From an uncultured Bacillota bacterium (lineage in GTDB: Bacteria; Bacillota; Clostridia; Peptostreptococcales; Anaerovoracaceae): a stretch of DNA of 5,418 bases. This document shows, piece by piece, positions 7 to 5,418 of the stretch. The notes under the pieces were generated by a model, which saw only the letters and a list, made by a program, of their open reading frames with translations, had not been told where the DNA came from and made no database searches. Location: contig CABQMM010000108.1 in assembly GCA_902465215.1 (NCBI GenBank), positions 1-5,418 of the forward strand. Direction: 5' to 3'. Numbering within the stretch: the first letter of the stretch is position 1; the number at the start of each line of letters is the position of its first letter. The translations under genes and the position numbers were made by a program.

Positions 7-35
7 TTGACAGGCAACAAAATATATGGTACTAT
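7..35 (+). promoter_or_regulatory. Sigma-A-type promoter of the leader-metQNI operon
   Basis: TTGACA at 7-12 matches the -35 consensus exactly. TACTAT at 30-35 matches four of six bases of the -10 consensus, and the spacer is the ideal 17 nt. Transcription would start near 41-43, about 40 nt before the leader ORF and about 190 nt before the intrinsic terminator. No other convincing promoter is seen between here and metQ, so metQ expression should depend on passing that terminator. The promoter sits at the window edge, so operators upstream of -35 cannot be judged. Confidence 0.8.
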
Positions 36-81
36 CCTAACAGATTTGAAAATTGATTCTTGAGGAAAGGAGAAACACACC

Positions 82-216
82 ATGAGAAAATTGACATTCA
101 AGGCAGCAAGCGTTATGATGATGATGGAAATGTGCATGTGCAGCATGTGCATGCTTTGCGATACAATTTTTTCAAATGTGCTTTCCATCACCAAGACGAA
201 AACTTGTTTTCAATAA
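82..216 (+). CDS. Met/Cys-rich leader peptide (44 aa) of the methionine uptake operon
   Basis: This small ORF starts at ATG 82, has an AAGGAG ribosome binding site at 67-72 (9-nt spacing) and ends with TAA at 214-216. It lies between the promoter and an intrinsic terminator. Residues 12-26 read MMMMEMCMCSMCMLC: eight Met and four Cys in fifteen residues. The N-terminus (MRKLTFKAASV) and the tail (residues 27-44, one more Cys) are ordinary. Composition, size and position match an amino-acid-sensing leader peptide such as those of trp, his or leu operons, here tuned to sulfur amino acids. The last Cys codon of the cluster (157-159) ends 10 nt before the antiterminator arm at 170, so a ribosome stalled in the cluster should leave that arm mostly or wholly exposed. 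The family is not one I recognise by name. The main alternative is a small metal-binding peptide, since MxM and CxC patterns can bind copper, but the flanking RNA structure favours a regulatory role. Confidence 0.85.
   Translation: MRKLTFKAASVMMMMEMCMCSMCMLCDTIFSNVLSITKTKTCFQ
126..186 (+). promoter_or_regulatory. Candidate anti-antiterminator pairing (leader codons with region 2)
   Basis: GGAAA at 126-130 can pair with TTTCC at 182-186. After a 3-nt bulge, GCATGT at 134-139 can pair with 176-181 using two G-U pairs. This pairing would sequester the antiterminator arm when no ribosome masks the Met/Cys codons, leaving the terminator free to form. It competes with a local hairpin at 134-154 (nine pairs including two G-U, loop GCA) that could act as a transcription pause structure early in the leader. 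Both are hand-folded and the energetic balance is unknown. Confidence 0.45.
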
Positions 217-249
217 ACGATATGGAATTTTCGGAGAGCTCATTTGAAA
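170..249 (+). promoter_or_regulatory. Antiterminator stem, mutually exclusive with the terminator
   Basis: TTTCAAATGTGCTTTCC at 170-186 pairs antiparallel with 233-249. Sixteen of seventeen positions pair, including one G-U (183 with 236), and the only mismatch is T179 with T240. The 3' partner is the whole 5' arm and loop of the intrinsic terminator, so the two structures cannot coexist. The 5' partner begins 10 nt after the last codon of the Met/Cys cluster. This is the expected geometry for ribosome-controlled attenuation: a stalled ribosome allows this stem, and a moving ribosome disrupts it. Confidence 0.82.
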
Positions 250-263
250 GAGCTCTCTTTTTT
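234..263 (+). terminator. Intrinsic terminator (attenuator) before metQ
   Basis: GAGAGCTC at 234-241 and GAGCTCTC at 250-257 form a perfect 8-bp stem with an 8-nt loop (ATTTGAAA), followed directly by six T (258-263). It lies 17 nt after the leader peptide stop codon and 47 nt before metQ. The operon promoter is upstream, so this is a regulated terminator rather than the end of a preceding gene. Confidence 0.9.
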
Positions 264-310: not shown

Positions 311-1168
311 ATGAAAAAAGTTTTATCCACAGTTTTAACACTGACATTAGTATTCGCACTTGCGATTGCTTTCACAGGCTGCGGCAGCAGCGATGAATCT
401 TCAATTGAAATCGCTGTTCCAAACGACACGACAAACGAAGCAAGAGCGCTCCTTCTTCTGCAGGATCAGGGAATCATCACACTTGCTGACGGCGCAGGCA
501 TTACTGCAACAGTAAAGGACATCGTAGACAATCCGAAGAACATCAAGTTCCAGGAAGTCGAAGCAGCTCAGCTCCCTACAGTATTACAGGATGTTGATTA
601 CGCAGTTATCAACTCCAACTATGCACTTGACGCAGGACTCAACCCTGTAGGCGACGCACTGGCAATCGAAGGCGCATCTTCTGCATACAGCAACATTCTC
701 GCTGTTAAGGAAGGCAACGAAAACACAGATAAGATTAAGGCTTTAAAGGCAGCTCTTGAAAGCAAGCAGGTCGCTGATTTCATCGCAAAAGAATATGACG
801 GCGCTGTAGTAAGCACAGTAGAAAACCCGGGAGATGGATATGACGCAAGCGTTGATTACGATGCATTAAAGGGCACAGAAATCACAGTTGCAGCCTCCCC
901 TACACCACATGCTGAAATCCTTGACGTTGCAAAGGAAATCCTCGAAGCAAAAGGCGTTGCATTAAAGATTGTTGAATTCACTGACTATGTTCAGCCGAAC
1001 AATGTTGTAGACAGCGGCGACATCGATGCAAACTACTTCCAGCACCTGCCTTACCTTGAAGACTTCAATGCACAAAACGGCACAAACGTTGTTTCCGTAG
1101 CAGCAGTTCACGTAGAACCGATGGGCTTATACGGCGGCAAGCAGACTACACTCGACGCATTAAAATAA
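311..1168 (+). CDS. metQ: Methionine-binding lipoprotein MetQ (NlpA family), circularly permuted
   Basis: This 285-aa protein is the substrate-binding lipoprotein of a methionine ABC importer and should be anchored outside the membrane. Residues 1-23 are a signal peptide with lipobox FTGC, so Cys24 would be lipidated. The start ATG has GGAGGT at 298-303. The order of family motifs is unusual. Directly after the lipobox come the motifs of the normal second half: AVPNDTTNEARALLLLQ (35-51), NPKN (74-77), EAAQLP (84-89), VIN (99-101), SNIL (127-130) and YDGAVV (162-167). A linker follows (about 168-188). Then come motifs of the normal first half: SPTPHAEIL (196-204), FTDYVQPN (223-230), DIDANYFQHLPYLEDF (237-252), EPMGLY (269-274) and a terminal LDALK. 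Nothing seems missing, and positions usually conserved at the ligand site (R45, N101, N128, F243, H245) are present. It is followed by metN after 22 nt. The methionine assignment rests on family and on metN/metI context; related NlpA proteins bind other small ligands. Confidence 0.9.
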   Translation: MKKVLSTVLTLTLVFALAIAFTGCGSSDESSIEIAVPNDTTNEARALLLLQDQGIITLADGAGITATVKDIVDNPKNIKFQEVEAAQLPTVLQDVDYAVINSNYALDAGLNPVGDALAIEGASSAYSNILAVKEGNENTDKIKALKAALESKQVADFIAKEYDGAVVSTVENPGDGYDASVDYDALKGTEITVAASPTPHAEILDVAKEILEAKGVALKIVEFTDYVQPNNVVDSGDIDANYFQHLPYLEDFNAQNGTNVVSVAAVHVEPMGLYGGKQTTLDALK

Positions 1169-1190: not shown

Positions 1191-2204
1191 ATGATAGAAA
1201 TTAAAAATCTTTCGAAAACATTCTCAGGCAGCGGTAATACAGTCGAAGCACTCAAAAATATCTCCATCACAATCGCTGATGGAGATATTTATGGCATTAT
1301 CGGCATGAGCGGAGCAGGAAAAAGTACGCTCGTAAGATGTATTAACATGCTGGAACGCCCGACAGAAGGAAGCGTTTTAATCGACGGATGCGATTTAGGC
1401 GCGCTTTCCGAAGCGGAACTGAGAAAAATACGCAGAAATGTTACCATGATATTCCAAAGCTTCAACCTGCTCGCACAGCGTACCTGTCTGAAGAATGTCT
1501 GCTTTCCGCTTGAGCTTGCAGGTGTAGCGAAGGCAGACGCGAAAAAGCGTGCAATGGAGCTTCTTGAGCTGGTCGGACTCCCGGATAAGGCGGATTCCTA
1601 TCCTGCGCAGCTTTCCGGCGGACAGCAGCAGAGAATCGCAATTGCCAGAGCGCTGGCTACAGACCCGAAAATTTTGCTTTGCGACGAAGCTACAAGCGCA
1701 CTTGACCCGAATACTACCCACTCTGTTCTTTCCCTGATAAAAGACATCAATAAAAAACTCGGCATTACGGTTATCATAATTACACATCAGATGAGCGTTG
1801 TGGAAGAAGTCTGCAATAAAGTCGCAATCCTCGACCATGGCGAAGTGGTTGAAGAAGGTGCGGTTTCCGATGTTTTCTCCAAACCGCAATCCGCTGCTGC
1901 GAAAAAACTGGTATTCCCGGACGGCGTGGCAGATACGCTTCCTCTCAAGGAAAATGAACACCATCTGCGTGTTGTTTTCAACGGCGCAGATGCAACCAAT
2001 ACACCTCTCATTGCAAAGCTTGCGATGGATAAAGGCATCGCTGCCAATATTTTAGGTGCAAGCACGAAGAGCATTGAAGGTAAGGCTTACGGCAATATGC
2101 TTCTTGGCATTTCCGGAGATGAAAAGACCGTACAGGAAGCGATTTCCTATTTAAGTGAAATCAGTAATGTCATTACAGAGGAGGTGGATCAGGATGTTCG
2201 ATAG
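1191..2204 (+). CDS. metN: Methionine ABC importer ATPase MetN with C-terminal NIL domain
   Basis: This is the cytoplasmic ATPase (337 aa) that powers methionine uptake through MetI. The nucleotide-binding domain spans about residues 1-240: Walker A GMSGAGKST (38-46), Q-loop Q89, signature LSGGQ (141-145), Walker B ILLCDE (161-166) and switch His199. Residues about 255-335 form the regulatory NIL domain typical of MetN, which in characterised members binds methionine and inhibits transport when cytoplasmic methionine is high. The length fits the family (about 340). The ATG at 1191 follows AGGAG at 1177-1181. The gene overlaps metI by 11 bases, suggesting translational coupling. A perfect 14-bp inverted repeat lies inside its first 100 bases. 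All catalytic motifs are intact. Confidence 0.95.
   Translation: MIEIKNLSKTFSGSGNTVEALKNISITIADGDIYGIIGMSGAGKSTLVRCINMLERPTEGSVLIDGCDLGALSEAELRKIRRNVTMIFQSFNLLAQRTCLKNVCFPLELAGVAKADAKKRAMELLELVGLPDKADSYPAQLSGGQQQRIAIARALATDPKILLCDEATSALDPNTTHSVLSLIKDINKKLGITVIIITHQMSVVEEVCNKVAILDHGEVVEEGAVSDVFSKPQSAAAKKLVFPDGVADTLPLKENEHHLRVVFNGADATNTPLIAKLAMDKGIAANILGASTKSIEGKAYGNMLLGISGDEKTVQEAISYLSEISNVITEEVDQDVR
1256..1290 (+). repeat. Perfect 14-bp inverted repeat inside metN
   Basis: AAATATCTCCATCA at 1256-1269 is the exact reverse complement of 1277-1290, with a 7-nt loop (CAATCGC). It lies 66-100 bases into metN and encodes part of the first strands of the ATPase domain. No U-tract follows, so it is not an intrinsic terminator. 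In mRNA it would form a strong hairpin just downstream of metQ, where it could slow ribosomes or protect the metQ end from 3' exonucleases. Confidence 0.75.
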
Positions 2205-2898
2205 TATACTGGCTTCTGAAAGCGTACAGGAAGCTCTCAGCATTTTGCAGACAGAATTTCCGCTCGCAATCTGGGAAACTTTCTATGTGACAATTTTGTC
2301 AACACTTTTTGCATCCATTATCGGCCTGCCCCTCGGCGTACTCGTAACCGTCGGCAGCAGGGACGGCATTCTGCCGCTTCCGAAATGGCTGATGACGATT
2401 TTGGATGTAGTAATCAACTTGCTGCGTTCCGTGCCGTTCCTGATTCTGATGATTATGGTTATTCCGCTTACGAGACTGATTGTGGGAACTCCGGTCGGCA
2501 CGGTGGCTTCTATCGTACCGCTGACGATTGCGGCATTTCCTTTCATCGCAAGACTTGTGGAAAGCAGCCTGCGTGAGGTAAGCCCGAACATCATCGAAGC
2601 GGCGCAGAGCATGGGCGCAACTCCATTCCAAGTTATCGTAAAAGTTCTGATTCCGGAAAGCGTTCCTTCACTAATTTCGAACGGAACTATTGCAATTACG
2701 ACGATTTTAGGTTATTCTGCTATGAGTGGTATTATCGGCGGCGGCGGCCTCGGCAAAATCGCCATCAATTACGGCTACTACCGCTATAAGACTTTGGTTA
2801 TGATTTTAGCAGTTATTCTGCTGATTATCATGGTTCAGGTTTTCCAAAGTCTGGGTACGTACTTAGTTAAGAAATTAGACAGAAGGAGTTTCGATTAA
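2194..2898 (+). CDS. metI: Methionine ABC importer permease MetI
   Basis: This 234-aa integral membrane permease forms the translocation path of the importer and pairs with MetN. The EAA coupling motif is clear at residues 135-156 (EAAQSMGATPFQVIVKVLIPES). About five hydrophobic segments are seen near 25-53, 65-92, 100-122, 163-183 and 198-220, and GGGGLG at 182-187 is typical of MetI. I chose ATG 2194 because AGGAGGT at 2179-2185 sits 8 nt upstream, and the resulting N-terminus (MFDSILAS) and length fit the family. A GTG at 2155 would add 13 residues but has no ribosome binding site. The gene starts 11 bases inside metN and ends 2 bases before the ABC-F gene, whose ribosome binding site lies in the last metI codons. 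Confidence 0.95.
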   Translation: MFDSILASESVQEALSILQTEFPLAIWETFYVTILSTLFASIIGLPLGVLVTVGSRDGILPLPKWLMTILDVVINLLRSVPFLILMIMVIPLTRLIVGTPVGTVASIVPLTIAAFPFIARLVESSLREVSPNIIEAAQSMGATPFQVIVKVLIPESVPSLISNGTIAITTILGYSAMSGIIGGGGLGKIAINYGYYRYKTLVMILAVILLIIMVQVFQSLGTYLVKKLDRRSFD

Positions 2899-2900
2899 AC

Positions 2901-4466
2901 ATGAGCTTACTCACAGTAGAAAATGTAACGCACGGCTTCGGCGCCAGACAGATTTTAGAGGATGCGTCTTTCAGACTTCTGAAAGGTGAGCATATCGGTC
3001 TCATCGGCGCCAACGGGGAGGGAAAATCCACTTTCCTGAATATTATAACCGGAAAAATCATGCCGGATTCCGGCAAAATCACATGGTCCCGCCATGTCAC
3101 AGTCGGCTATCTGGACCAGCATTCCGTTCTGAAAAAAGGCATGAGCATCCGCGAAGTGCTTCGCACCGCATTCAATCATATGTACGAGCTGGAAGCGGAA
3201 ATGCTGAAGATTTACGAAGATATGGCTCTTCCGGAGAATGGGGACAAAATGGACGAAATGATGGAAGATGCCGGCGAAATTCAGCAAATCCTTGAATACA
3301 GCGGCTTCTATCAGTTAGATGCCAAGATTGAGGAAGTTGCAGGCGGTCTGGGGCTTCGCGACATTGGGCTCGACAAGGATGTATCCGACCTTTCCGGCGG
3401 CCAGCGCACGAAAGTTCTGCTGGTGAAGCTTTTGCTCGAAAATCCGTCGATTCTGATTTTGGACGAACCGACGAACTATCTGGACCACGAGCATATCGTG
3501 TGGCTTACCAGATACCTTCAAAACTATGAGAATGCTTTCATTCTCGTTTCACACGATGTAGAATTTTTAAACTCCGTAGTTAATGTAATATATAATTTGG
3601 ACGGCGGCAATCTCACCCGTTACACGGGCGATTACGAAAACTTCCGCCGTATGTACGAAATTCAGAAAGCGCAGGAAAAAGCCGCTTACGAGCGTCAGCA
3701 GGCGGAAATCGAAAAGCTTGAGGATTTCATTGCCAGAAACAAAGCCCGCGTTGCGACACGCGGCATGGCAAACTCCCGTCAGAAGCAGCTTGATAAGATG
3801 GAAATACTCGAACGTCCGACCGAAAAGATTAAGCCGGAATTTAACTTCCTGATGGCACGCACACCGAGCCGCTTCGTGGTCGAAGCAAAGGACTTGGTCA
3901 TCGGATACAGTCAGGATGAACCGCTCACAAGACCTGTATCTTTTACGCTTGAGCGCGGTCAGAAGGTTGCCATCGTAGGAACCAACGGACTCGGCAAATC
4001 TACGCTTCTGAAAACGATTCTCGGCAAGCTCCCGCCGCTTTCCGGCGAGGCTCAGCTTGGGGACTATCTCTTCCCGGGCTATTTTGAGCAGGAAGCAGAC
4101 CGCGACTCACAAGAAACCGCCCTTGACACATTCTGGGCACAGTTTCCTTCGATGGAAAATCGTGAAGTTCGCCTGTGCCTTGCCAAATGCGGTCTGACGA
4201 ACGAACATATCACAAGTCAGATGCGGGTGCTTTCCGGCGGCGAAAACGCGAAGGTGCGTCTTGCCATCGTGATGAACCGCGAGCACAATTGGCTCGTGCT
4301 CGACGAACCGACGAACCACCTTGATGTGGACGCAAAGGACGAATTAAAGCGCGCTTTAACGGAATTTCCGGGAACGATTTTACTCGTTTCCCACGACCCG
4401 CTCTTCTATGAAGACTTCGTAACCGATGTCTGGAATGTAGAGGACTGGACAACGAAAATCGTATAA
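2901..4466 (+). CDS. ABC-F family ATPase (ribosome-associated, YkpA/YbiT-like)
   Basis: This soluble 521-aa protein has two ABC ATPase domains and no membrane segments, the ABC-F plan. These proteins act at the ribosomal E site as translation factors or, in some branches, as antibiotic-resistance factors. Domain 1: Walker A GANGEGKST (36-44), LSGGQ (164-168), ILILDEP (184-190), H218. Domain 2: Walker A GTNGLGKST (360-368), LSGGE (444-448), LVLDEP (465-470), H498. Between them is a charged, coiled-coil-like linker (about 245-320) containing ARNKARVATRGMANSRQKQL, the P-site tRNA interaction motif region. The linker is short and there is no long C-terminal extension, which favours a housekeeping translation factor over a resistance protein, though resistance cannot be excluded. 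ATG 2901 follows AAGGAG at 2883-2888 inside the metI end. With only 2 bases after the metI stop and no terminator, it should be co-transcribed with metQNI and subject to the same attenuator. Confidence 0.9.
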   Translation: MSLLTVENVTHGFGARQILEDASFRLLKGEHIGLIGANGEGKSTFLNIITGKIMPDSGKITWSRHVTVGYLDQHSVLKKGMSIREVLRTAFNHMYELEAEMLKIYEDMALPENGDKMDEMMEDAGEIQQILEYSGFYQLDAKIEEVAGGLGLRDIGLDKDVSDLSGGQRTKVLLVKLLLENPSILILDEPTNYLDHEHIVWLTRYLQNYENAFILVSHDVEFLNSVVNVIYNLDGGNLTRYTGDYENFRRMYEIQKAQEKAAYERQQAEIEKLEDFIARNKARVATRGMANSRQKQLDKMEILERPTEKIKPEFNFLMARTPSRFVVEAKDLVIGYSQDEPLTRPVSFTLERGQKVAIVGTNGLGKSTLLKTILGKLPPLSGEAQLGDYLFPGYFEQEADRDSQETALDTFWAQFPSMENREVRLCLAKCGLTNEHITSQMRVLSGGENAKVRLAIVMNREHNWLVLDEPTNHLDVDAKDELKRALTEFPGTILLVSHDPLFYEDFVTDVWNVEDWTTKIV

Positions 4467-4470
4467 CTTT

Positions 4471-4486
4471 TGCTCAATTTTGAGCA
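4471..4486. repeat. Small hairpin after the ABC-F stop codon
   Basis: TGCTCA at 4471-4476 and TGAGCA at 4481-4486 form a 6-bp stem with a 4-nt loop (ATTT). It lies 4 nt after the stop codon and directly before the main terminator. It has no T-run of its own and may only stack with or assist the following terminator. Confidence 0.4.
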
Positions 4487-4490
4487 TGCA

Positions 4491-4528
4491 AAAAGACCTG
4501 CCTTGGTTACCGCAGGTCTTTTGTTTTT
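4491..4528. terminator. Bidirectional intrinsic terminator between convergent genes
   Basis: AAAAGACCTGC at 4491-4501 and GCAGGTCTTTT at 4512-4522 form a perfect 11-bp stem with a 10-nt loop. On the plus strand a T-rich tail follows (TTTT inside the stem, then G and five T to 4528). On the minus strand the A-run at 4490-4494 supplies the U-tract. It thus serves both the met operon and the convergent CDF gene, whose stop codon (4527-4529) touches the tail. Confidence 0.9.
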
Positions 4529-5418
4529 ATTCTACATATGCACGGTCAAATTCGACAACCGCATGAAAATTCGGATTGTATGATGCCACCGCTCTTGCAA
4601 ACTTCTCGGAAATTTCTTCGTTTGACAGCTTGCACTCCGGTGATACCGCAATATCAAATACCACATTGGTATGGGTCGGCCCCGGAACAATCCTGAGATC
4701 GTGAAAGTTGCAAATCCCGTCGAGTCTGCCTACCGTTTCCATCAAAACATGCTTCAGCGGTTCTCTGTTCGGATCGCTCAAATCGATCGGATCCATGTGA
4801 ACCGTACAGTTTATCCCCAGTTTCTTCGCGATGTCATGCTCAATGTTATCAATCATGTCGTGGCTGACCATTACATCCACAGCTGCGTCAACTTCCACGT
4901 GAAGCGATGCAAAAACCTTTCCCGGTCCGTAATTATGTACCGCAAGGTCATGCAGTCCGAGCACGCCTTCATAGCTGTTTGCTATTTTCTCAATTGCAGC
5001 CACCATTTCCGAATCCGGAGCCTCTCCGAGCAGCGGGCTTACCGTTTCCTTAACCAAGCCAATTCCCGACCATATGATAAACAGTGCCACCAAAACGCCC
5101 ATATAACCGTCAATCTGTATTTGAAACAGTTCGCCTATAATCAGGCTCAGGAGAACCGCAGAAGTTGCGATTACATCGTTTCGGCTGTCTGCGCCCGTCG
5201 CAATCAAAGTCATCGAATTGATTCGTCTGCCTGCCGAAATATTAAAGCACGCCTGCCAGATTTTGATTCCGATTGCAAGAAGCAGCACGATTACAACCGT
5301 TGGACTGAATTCCGTCGGCGTCGGCGCAAAAATCTTTTCCGCCGAGCTTTTCCCCAGCTCCAATCCCACAACAATGATAATAACCGATACCAAGAGCCCT
5401 GCCAGATACTCAATCCGC
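4527..5418 (-). CDS. Cation diffusion facilitator (CDF) metal efflux transporter, 5' end outside window
   Basis: A proton- or counter-ion-coupled divalent metal exporter of the inner membrane; 296 residues are visible. The frame stays open to the window edge, and the first residues (RIEYLAGLL) match the segment just before TM3 in CDF proteins, so about 80-100 residues including TM1-TM2 lie beyond the window. An internal TTG at 5393 is not the start. Counting from the window edge, TM3 is about 5-22, TM4 39-58, TM5 79-98 and TM6 104-121. The metal site of TM5 reads D77-S-R-N-D81, a DxxxD rather than the HxxxD of zinc-type members, pointing to Mn or Fe; the partner site in TM2 cannot be seen. 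A cytoplasmic ferredoxin-like dimerization domain (about 151-212) is followed by a second segment of similar pattern (about 234-296). The protein ends at TAA 4527-4529. It is convergent with the met operon and probably unrelated in regulation. Confidence 0.92.
   Translation of the reverse strand, partial: RIEYLAGLLVSVIIIVVGLELGKSSAEKIFAPTPTEFSPTVVIVLLLAIGIKIWQACFNISAGRRINSMTLIATGADSRNDVIATSAVLLSLIIGELFQIQIDGYMGVLVALFIIWSGIGLVKETVSPLLGEAPDSEMVAAIEKIANSYEGVLGLHDLAVHNYGPGKVFASLHVEVDAAVDVMVSHDMIDNIEHDIAKKLGINCTVHMDPIDLSDPNREPLKHVLMETVGRLDGICNFHDLRIVPGPTHTNVVFDIAVSPECKLSNEEISEKFARAVASYNPNFHAVVEFDRAYVE

Follow-up and report, generated by a model that had tools for sequence, protein, structure and literature searches.

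A probable methionine leader-peptide attenuator ahead of methionine-importer genes in mostly clostridial genomes

The window analysed here, a stretch of 5,418 nucleotides from an uncultured Bacillota bacterium, carries a methionine-importer operon, metQNI, preceded by a short ORF that is dense in Met codons (Table 1). The real start of metI probably lies inside the frame listed, near position 2194. Behind the ABC-F gene, the minus strand carries a gene for a CDF-family cation-efflux transporter (4527-5417) that is truncated by the end of the window. An Rfam match to STnc370 at 4451-4528 (31.1 bits against a cut-off of 54, E 0.27) coincides with the terminator that follows the ABC-F gene and is most likely due to chance. 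A five-codon ORF reading MKKRR and then stop (288-305), the final codons of which overlap the metQ Shine-Dalgarno sequence, may likewise be a chance occurrence. The case made below for an attenuator is wholly computational and draws on sequence, comparison and folding.

Table 1. Features read or predicted in the window
Feature	Position	Strand	Remarks
Promoter-like pair	7..35	+	TTGACA 7-12, extended -10 TGGTACTAT 27-35; consensus matches 10/12
Region 1, protector strand (leader Shine-Dalgarno and start region)	58..93	+	predicted partner 164-196 without leader translation
Shine-Dalgarno sequence of leader ORF	64..72	+	GGAAAGGAG; sequence reading
Leader ORF	82..216	+	MRKLTFKAASVMMMMEMCMCSMCMLCDTIFSNVLSITKTKTCFQ; 44 codons, ATG 82-84, TAA 214-216
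Met/Cys run	115..159	+	codons 12-26, MMMMEMCMCSMCMLC; 8 Met, 4 Cys
Region 2, antiterminator strand	169..187	+	within leader ORF, behind Met run
Region 3, terminator 5' arm and loop	232..249	+	pairs with region 2 or region 4
Intrinsic terminator hairpin	233..258	+	followed by T run 258-263
metQ, NlpA/MetQ substrate-binding lipoprotein	311..1168	+	Pfam PF03180; NCBIfam TIGR00363 under its cut-off
metN, ATPase with NIL domain	1191..2204	+	top NCBIfam match MetN, under cut-off; Pfam NIL
metI, permease	2155..2898	+	top NCBIfam match MetI, 211.8 bits vs cut-off 212
ABC-F gene	2901-4466		after metI

The original prediction described a leader ORF with a good ribosome binding site and a Met/Cys-rich run, placed between a promoter and a terminator, and the sequence confirms both the ORF and its setting. 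The final Met of the run is codon 24, ending at position 153. The promoter-like pair has a spacer of 17 and a TG preceding its second hexamer, and the terminator hairpin starts 17 nt past the leader stop and ends 53 nt ahead of metQ. Taken alone, the scans for these flanking signals are weak, with 3 promoter-like sites in the window against 1.7 expected and 2 terminator-like sites against 1.2 expected. The Met codon run itself is not a product of chance: when bases 1-310 were shuffled 3000 times with dinucleotides preserved, no open frame with at least 7 Met in 14 codons appeared, where the window has 8. The leader RNA also folds more strongly than its own shuffles (z -4.1).

The window peptide has five close relatives among database proteins, with 89-93% identity in the aligned part and 50-100% query coverage, and the Met/Cys run is kept in all five. 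Neither NCBIfam nor Pfam holds a model for the window peptide, and NCBIfam holds none for eight leader and second-ORF peptides (see below) from relatives. No Rfam family matched the window leader at E values up to 1. A SAM riboswitch (RF00162) or T-box in the window was rejected, since neither gave a match in that search, which agrees with the original prediction, where neither was seen.

MetQ relatives were found by scanning genome contigs with the window MetQ, and a Met-dense short ORF stands ahead of metQ at 34 of the 80 loci examined, which were the best 80 of at least 583 relatives; these loci are mostly metagenome-assembled and were chosen as best matches, and counts among them are not natural frequencies. 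The search for such ORFs upstream of metQ homologues had been proposed as a check on the prediction. Under a fixed rule of at least 6 Met in 14 codons no more than 520 nt from metQ, 31 of the 80 loci scored, whereas no locus did so in any of 30 shuffled sets or on the reverse strand (0/80). Relaxing the rule to at least 5 Met gave 32/80 loci (shuffles 0.07, reverse strand 3), and at least 4 Met gave 36/80 (shuffles mean 1.47).

The count of 34 is partly a matter of judgement. Before hand selection, 37 of the 80 loci qualified at a threshold of 4 or more Met in 14 codons. Three of these were excluded (L011, L020 and L065), which have short ORFs of 14-19 aa with 4 Met lying 416-570 nt upstream, whereas L064 and L066, likewise with 4 Met, were retained since a matching terminator lies downstream. 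L029 (see below) was not counted as a leader. A run of the kind set by the fixed rule (at least 6 Met in 14 codons) was absent from both strands of all the DNA analysed at the other 46 loci. Dozens of genomes, most of them clostridial, carry a Met-codon-rich leader ORF ahead of the genes for methionine import.

When whole genomes were searched, the Met-run pattern was present in 8 of 16, at a single site in each and always adjoining metQ, with two overlapping matches in one of the 8. The strict form of the pattern matched 8/12 leader genomes and 0/4 T-box genomes. Among 394 genomes of one order it matched in 11 (reversed pattern, 2/394), a figure that is not an estimate of frequency, since the strict pattern recovers only 8 of 12 leader genomes. 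Six of the 11 are leaders: three lie ahead of metQ, one of these being already among the known loci, two (L092 and L099) precede metN-metI in metN-first operons, and one (L093) precedes a gene that, named from its sequence, we take to encode O-acetylhomoserine sulfhydrylase (metY-like). The remaining matches (L090, L091, L094, L095 and L098) are without metQ, metN or metI and were set aside; L095 contains a Met-rich frame. In a survey of metY-like genes (best 30 matches; 83/89 genomes with a match) Met-run leaders were rare, at 2/30 loci. In the second case, L122, the Met-run leader holds 5 Met in 14 codons and is accompanied by a promoter-like site and a terminator. At L093/L108 and L122, a Met-run leader and terminator stand ahead of metY-like genes, so that the leader there serves a biosynthesis gene.

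At the metQ loci, an ORF of at least 130 aa ending no more than 250 nt from metQ was present in 0/34 leader loci versus 26/38 loci with neither leader nor T-box, as judged by ORF reading only. The leader thus goes with a metQ that stands first in its operon, and no leader is expected in those 26 of 38 loci, as metQ there lies within 250 nt of the upstream ORF.

Some of the leaderless relatives carry a different regulator. A T-box precedes metQ in 8/46 leaderless loci, four scoring above the Rfam threshold and four recognized by the T-box core sequence, and this core was not found in any of the 34 leader loci. In 7 of the 8 T-box loci a GAA-N-AUG-G stretch, in which an AUG specifier is visible, lies where we presume the specifier to be, guided by the L041 alignment. 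No SAM riboswitch was detected at the gathering threshold at the 80 MetQ loci; one is present elsewhere in the genome in 16/16 genomes tested. Judged from these sequence matches, the Met leader occupies the slot where some relatives carry a T-box.

A terminator of -12 kcal/mol or better lies between the leader stop and metQ in 35/35 leaders (the 34 and the window), as compared with 2/700 shuffles. A terminator of that strength was present no more than 250 nt from metQ in 11/46 leaderless loci, some of which are the T-box loci.

Pairing between leader segments and the terminator arm was analysed in 40 leaders, namely the 34, the window, L092, L093, L096, L097 and L099. Stretches of equal length were paired with the terminator arm of their own locus or of other loci, and significance was assessed by permutation. 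For the stretch 5-45 nt past the last Met codon, the mean was -13.10 with the own arm and -10.53 with swapped arms (z -6.9, 0/5000 permutations), and overlapping stretches gave z values of -5.8 to -6.2. The control positions, three upstream and one further downstream, gave z values of -0.7 to +2.1. The preference persisted in 37 non-redundant leaders (z -6.7). The corresponding duplex in the window (169-187/232-249) has a computed energy of -21.6 kcal/mol and is top of the 40 in both swap directions; 10 of the 40 antiterminators are weaker than -10 kcal/mol. A swap control over long, unequal stretches did not discriminate own from foreign terminator arms, because the arms are alike across loci and long stretches dominate. 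The antiterminator strand sits where a ribosome halted on the Met run would just leave it uncovered.

The antiterminator segment also pairs preferentially with a stretch of its own locus that lies 90-50 nt upstream of the run's end (z -8.4 in the 40 leaders; -7.8 in non-redundant leaders). In the window this protector stretch corresponds to bases 64-103, covering the leader Shine-Dalgarno sequence, the start and the first codons, and the Shine-Dalgarno region alone gave z -5.9 with the antiterminator segment. Other stretches gave z values of -2.9 to +0.9, with the -2.9 at one neighbouring position, and the Met run itself gave -4.0. The Met run as a separate, self-folding pause hairpin was rejected as too weak (mean z -0.80 against codon shuffles, with 17/40 below -1 and 4 above +1).

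The leaders hence display the structural features of a trp-type attenuator: a short ORF bearing a ribosome binding site, a run of control codons, an intrinsic terminator and an antiterminator behind the control codons. The control codon feature (at least 4 Met in 17 codons in 40/40 leaders) is partly due to the way in which the leaders were selected. Of the regulatory elements, the original prediction had named the leader and the terminator and had missed the antiterminator and the protector pairing. It is the antiterminator, together with the protector pairing in which the start region binds the antiterminator strand, that would make the attenuator complete. The leader-peptide reading is upheld by the Met-run ORFs ahead of metQ and by the terminator and antiterminator pairing across leaders.

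Folding of the window leader gave a mean terminator pair probability of 0.94 for the free RNA, 0.00 when a ribosome is halted on the final Met and 0.98 with a ribosome at the stop. To model the halted ribosome, all bases were masked as far as 12 nt beyond the final Met codon. The antiterminator forms in the stalled fold. The switch computed across the other leaders is weaker than in the window. Specifically, the equilibrium mean terminator probability for the 40 leaders was 0.93 free, 0.80 stalled and 0.96 at stop, and individual stalled values for seven other leaders were 0.70-0.99. A full switch is thus obtained on paper in the window alone, so elsewhere the order of synthesis must matter.

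The state of the RNA before the terminator 3' arm exists was also considered. At this point the terminator 5' arm is held by upstream RNA in 37/40 leaders when stalled, 22/40 when free and 7/40 at stop, with part of this difference arising simply because more RNA is exposed in the stalled state. When the upstream RNA was shuffled the arm was held at 0.54, versus 0.72 for native RNA, with native higher in 34/40; the effect is moderate, with just 15/40 stalled leaders in the top tenth against their own shuffles. For free RNA the mean hold of upstream sequence on the arm is 0.52, exceeding 0.5 in the 22 leaders and staying below 0.3 in 6/40. Such frequent holding is not predicted by a simple protector model. 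Protector pairing is present across the leaders and works in the fold of the window, yet 22/40 leaders as free RNA have the arm occupied by upstream sequence.

Taken together, the leader in the window is very probably a methionine leader-peptide attenuator that would control metQNI transcription, likely by ribosome stalling that senses charged tRNA-Met. The best reading is attenuation of the trp type with tRNA-Met charging as the signal. When methionine is ample, the ribosome would pass the Met run to the stop, and region 2 would be masked or else freed too late; the terminator would then form, with the importer off. In the window the stop lies 27 nt beyond the end of region 2, and a ribosome resting there would therefore not itself cover region 2. 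A shortage of charged tRNA-Met would halt the ribosome on the Met run, with region 2 exposed and able to pair with region 3; this pairing would prevent the terminator and allow RNA polymerase to enter metQ. In an untranslated leader, region 2 would be bound by region 1, and formation of the terminator would again keep the operon off.

The last of these states raises a further possibility, which we put forward tentatively. AUG is both the control codon and the start codon, and the antiterminator strand pairs with the leader Shine-Dalgarno and start region when the leader is untranslated; for these reasons the leader might act as a band-pass switch, opening the operon only in partial methionine shortage and shutting it both in plenty and in complete starvation. 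It would then be a Bacillota sensor of tRNA-Met that alternates with Met T-boxes at the same gene. In partial shortage, initiation would still work while elongation would stall on the Met run. This possibility is made slightly less probable by the small number of leaders in which the free RNA leaves the terminator arm open.

The signal sensed by the proposed attenuator can be judged from the codons of the run. The 40 runs contain a mean of 6.9 Met in 17 codons, with a minimum of 4, and a mean of 1.7 Cys, with none in 5/40. Methionine is the conserved signal and cysteine an enriched extra, so that the claim of a methionine/cysteine sensor is supported in its methionine half only. A variant of the preferred explanation, not exclusive of it, is that Met and Cys codons both stall the ribosome and work the same RNA switch. 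Cysteine is indeed strongly enriched, making up 69/404 non-Met codons of the 40 runs as against 9/1390 residues of the four complete genes of the window, but joint sensing is unlikely given that five runs lack Cys and no run falls below 4 Met, and that the alternative regulator in relatives, the T-box, shows a Met (AUG) specifier.

It is considerably less probable that the nascent Met/Cys peptide itself arrests the ribosome on a small molecule rather than through a shortage of charged tRNA-Met. The residue order MMEMCMC.MCML recurs in several loci and could reflect selection at the level of the peptide, but the residues between the Met vary freely from one leader to another among the 40 (Cys, Arg, Tyr, His, Gly, Ser and others), and the Met count is the sole feature of the run that is kept. 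Least credible of all is that the ORF encodes a functional micro-protein, such as a Met/Cys peptide that binds metal, with a hairpin that merely ends its own small transcript: the ORF has its own promoter-like site, Shine-Dalgarno sequence and terminator, and Met/Cys-rich peptides can bind soft metals, but the own-locus pairing of leader codons with the terminator is kept and the leader is bound to metQ at the operon head (upstream ORF in 0/34 versus 26/38).

The original prediction named loss of the Met/Cys run in close relatives that keep the terminator as evidence against it. In this respect the loci mostly favour a leader, with L029 as a partial exception, in which the terminator and an antiterminator-like segment are kept and the ORF has just two internal Met codons, in RMCMC. 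This ORF, MGKDTAAAARMCMCRSSLHVLSVIK followed by a stop, lies about 330-200 nt upstream of metQ; L029 may represent a leader in decay.

A second short ORF with its own Shine-Dalgarno sequence was observed between the terminator and metQ in 18/34 leader loci (L001, L008, L010, L012, L013, L018, L024, L028, L036, L038, L040, L048, L053, L054, L058, L064, L068 and L076), and additionally by eye in L032. It is not present in the window, and NCBIfam holds no model for it. The ORF ends in RM, followed by Cys, Arg or the stop, and has the DNA core CGAATGTG; MKSLTALMIRSNIRNGRM and MTNLIKITNLYSTRM, each followed by a stop, are examples. By analogy, its conservation looks like that of an arrest peptide. 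An ORF of this RM type is also found alone, with no Met-run leader beside it, in five or more leaderless loci (L015, where it reads MGKKFEKLVRENFRFGRM and stop, L026, L042, L052 and L075), and is therefore an element of its own. Its core, CGAATG(T/C)G, occurs upstream of 13 of the 30 best-matching metY-like genes (L110, L111, L113, L114, L119, L122, L125, L126, L129, L131, L132, L133 and L134). Twelve of the 13 read as ORFs with a Shine-Dalgarno sequence, several of them ending in NFRFGRM and stop, and L122 has the Met-run leader, the terminator and the RM-type ORF together. This distribution suggests a wider, undescribed leader of sulfur genes. The 55 nt behind the second ORF in 10 metQ loci are poor in G (A 0.42, C 0.21, G 0.11, T 0.26). 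G-poor stretches can be Rho-loading sites, and a Rho-dependent switch behind the second ORF is only a guess.

For methionine alone among the amino acids, sensing by a leader peptide seems self-defeating, because starvation should hinder initiation on the leader as well. A widespread Met attenuator of apparently complete anatomy makes it testable whether elongator Met-tRNA runs short before initiator Met-tRNA. The alternation of T-box and leader peptide at one slot is in addition a natural experiment in regulator replacement, and the attenuator reading provides a likely function for a class of tiny ORFs that have no model in NCBIfam, Pfam (window peptide) or Rfam.

No paper listed in searches of the open-licence literature mentions a Met leader peptide in Bacillota in its title or abstract opening, and the original prediction likewise knew of no Met/Cys leader of this type described in that group. 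Leader peptides of other kinds are in print for Bacillota, among them the his leaders of bacilli treated in the part of PMC2965389 considered. Precedents for Met leader peptides exist outside Bacillota, in Campylobacter jejuni, and these qualify the claim of novelty; they are weaker. MetL, of 20 aa with 3 Met codons, is a proposed Met leader upstream of metBA and, according to the sections of PMC3847290 considered, is confined to C. jejuni, C. coli and C. doylei; an initiation signal on it appears in the portion of PMC11955535 consulted. MetL resembles the window leader as a proposed Met leader behind the stop of which transcription ends shortly, and differs in its 3 Met codons and in the biosynthesis genes downstream, with no antiterminator described in those sections. 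CJsORF19 (MMYQMR), upstream of Cj0772c, is the subject of a one-sentence suggestion in the discussion of PMC11955535. As presented in that discussion, it is like the window leader a Met-rich small ORF, suggested to be the leader of a methionine-transport substrate-binding gene, and unlike it has only six residues. The cysteine leader peptides of Actinobacteria, as described in the excerpt of PMC1262725, share the runs of sulfur amino acid codons, but the codons are Cys rather than Met, and the paper found conserved terminator hairpins to be absent there; the same excerpt records no conserved RNA structure for actinobacterial methionine operons.

The Met T-box ahead of metQ has the gene, the slot and, as judged by the AUG specifier, the tRNA-Met charging signal in common with the window leader. 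Unlike the latter, its RNA binds the tRNA directly, without a translated leader. The closest parallels in architecture are the trp and his attenuators of Proteobacteria, in which, as in the window, a translated ORF with control codons, an antiterminator, a protector and a terminator precede genes for the amino acid concerned. The window leader differs from these in that its control codon, AUG, is also the start codon, in that its host group is Clostridia-like, and in that its region 1 lies at the leader Shine-Dalgarno sequence and start, ahead of the control codons.
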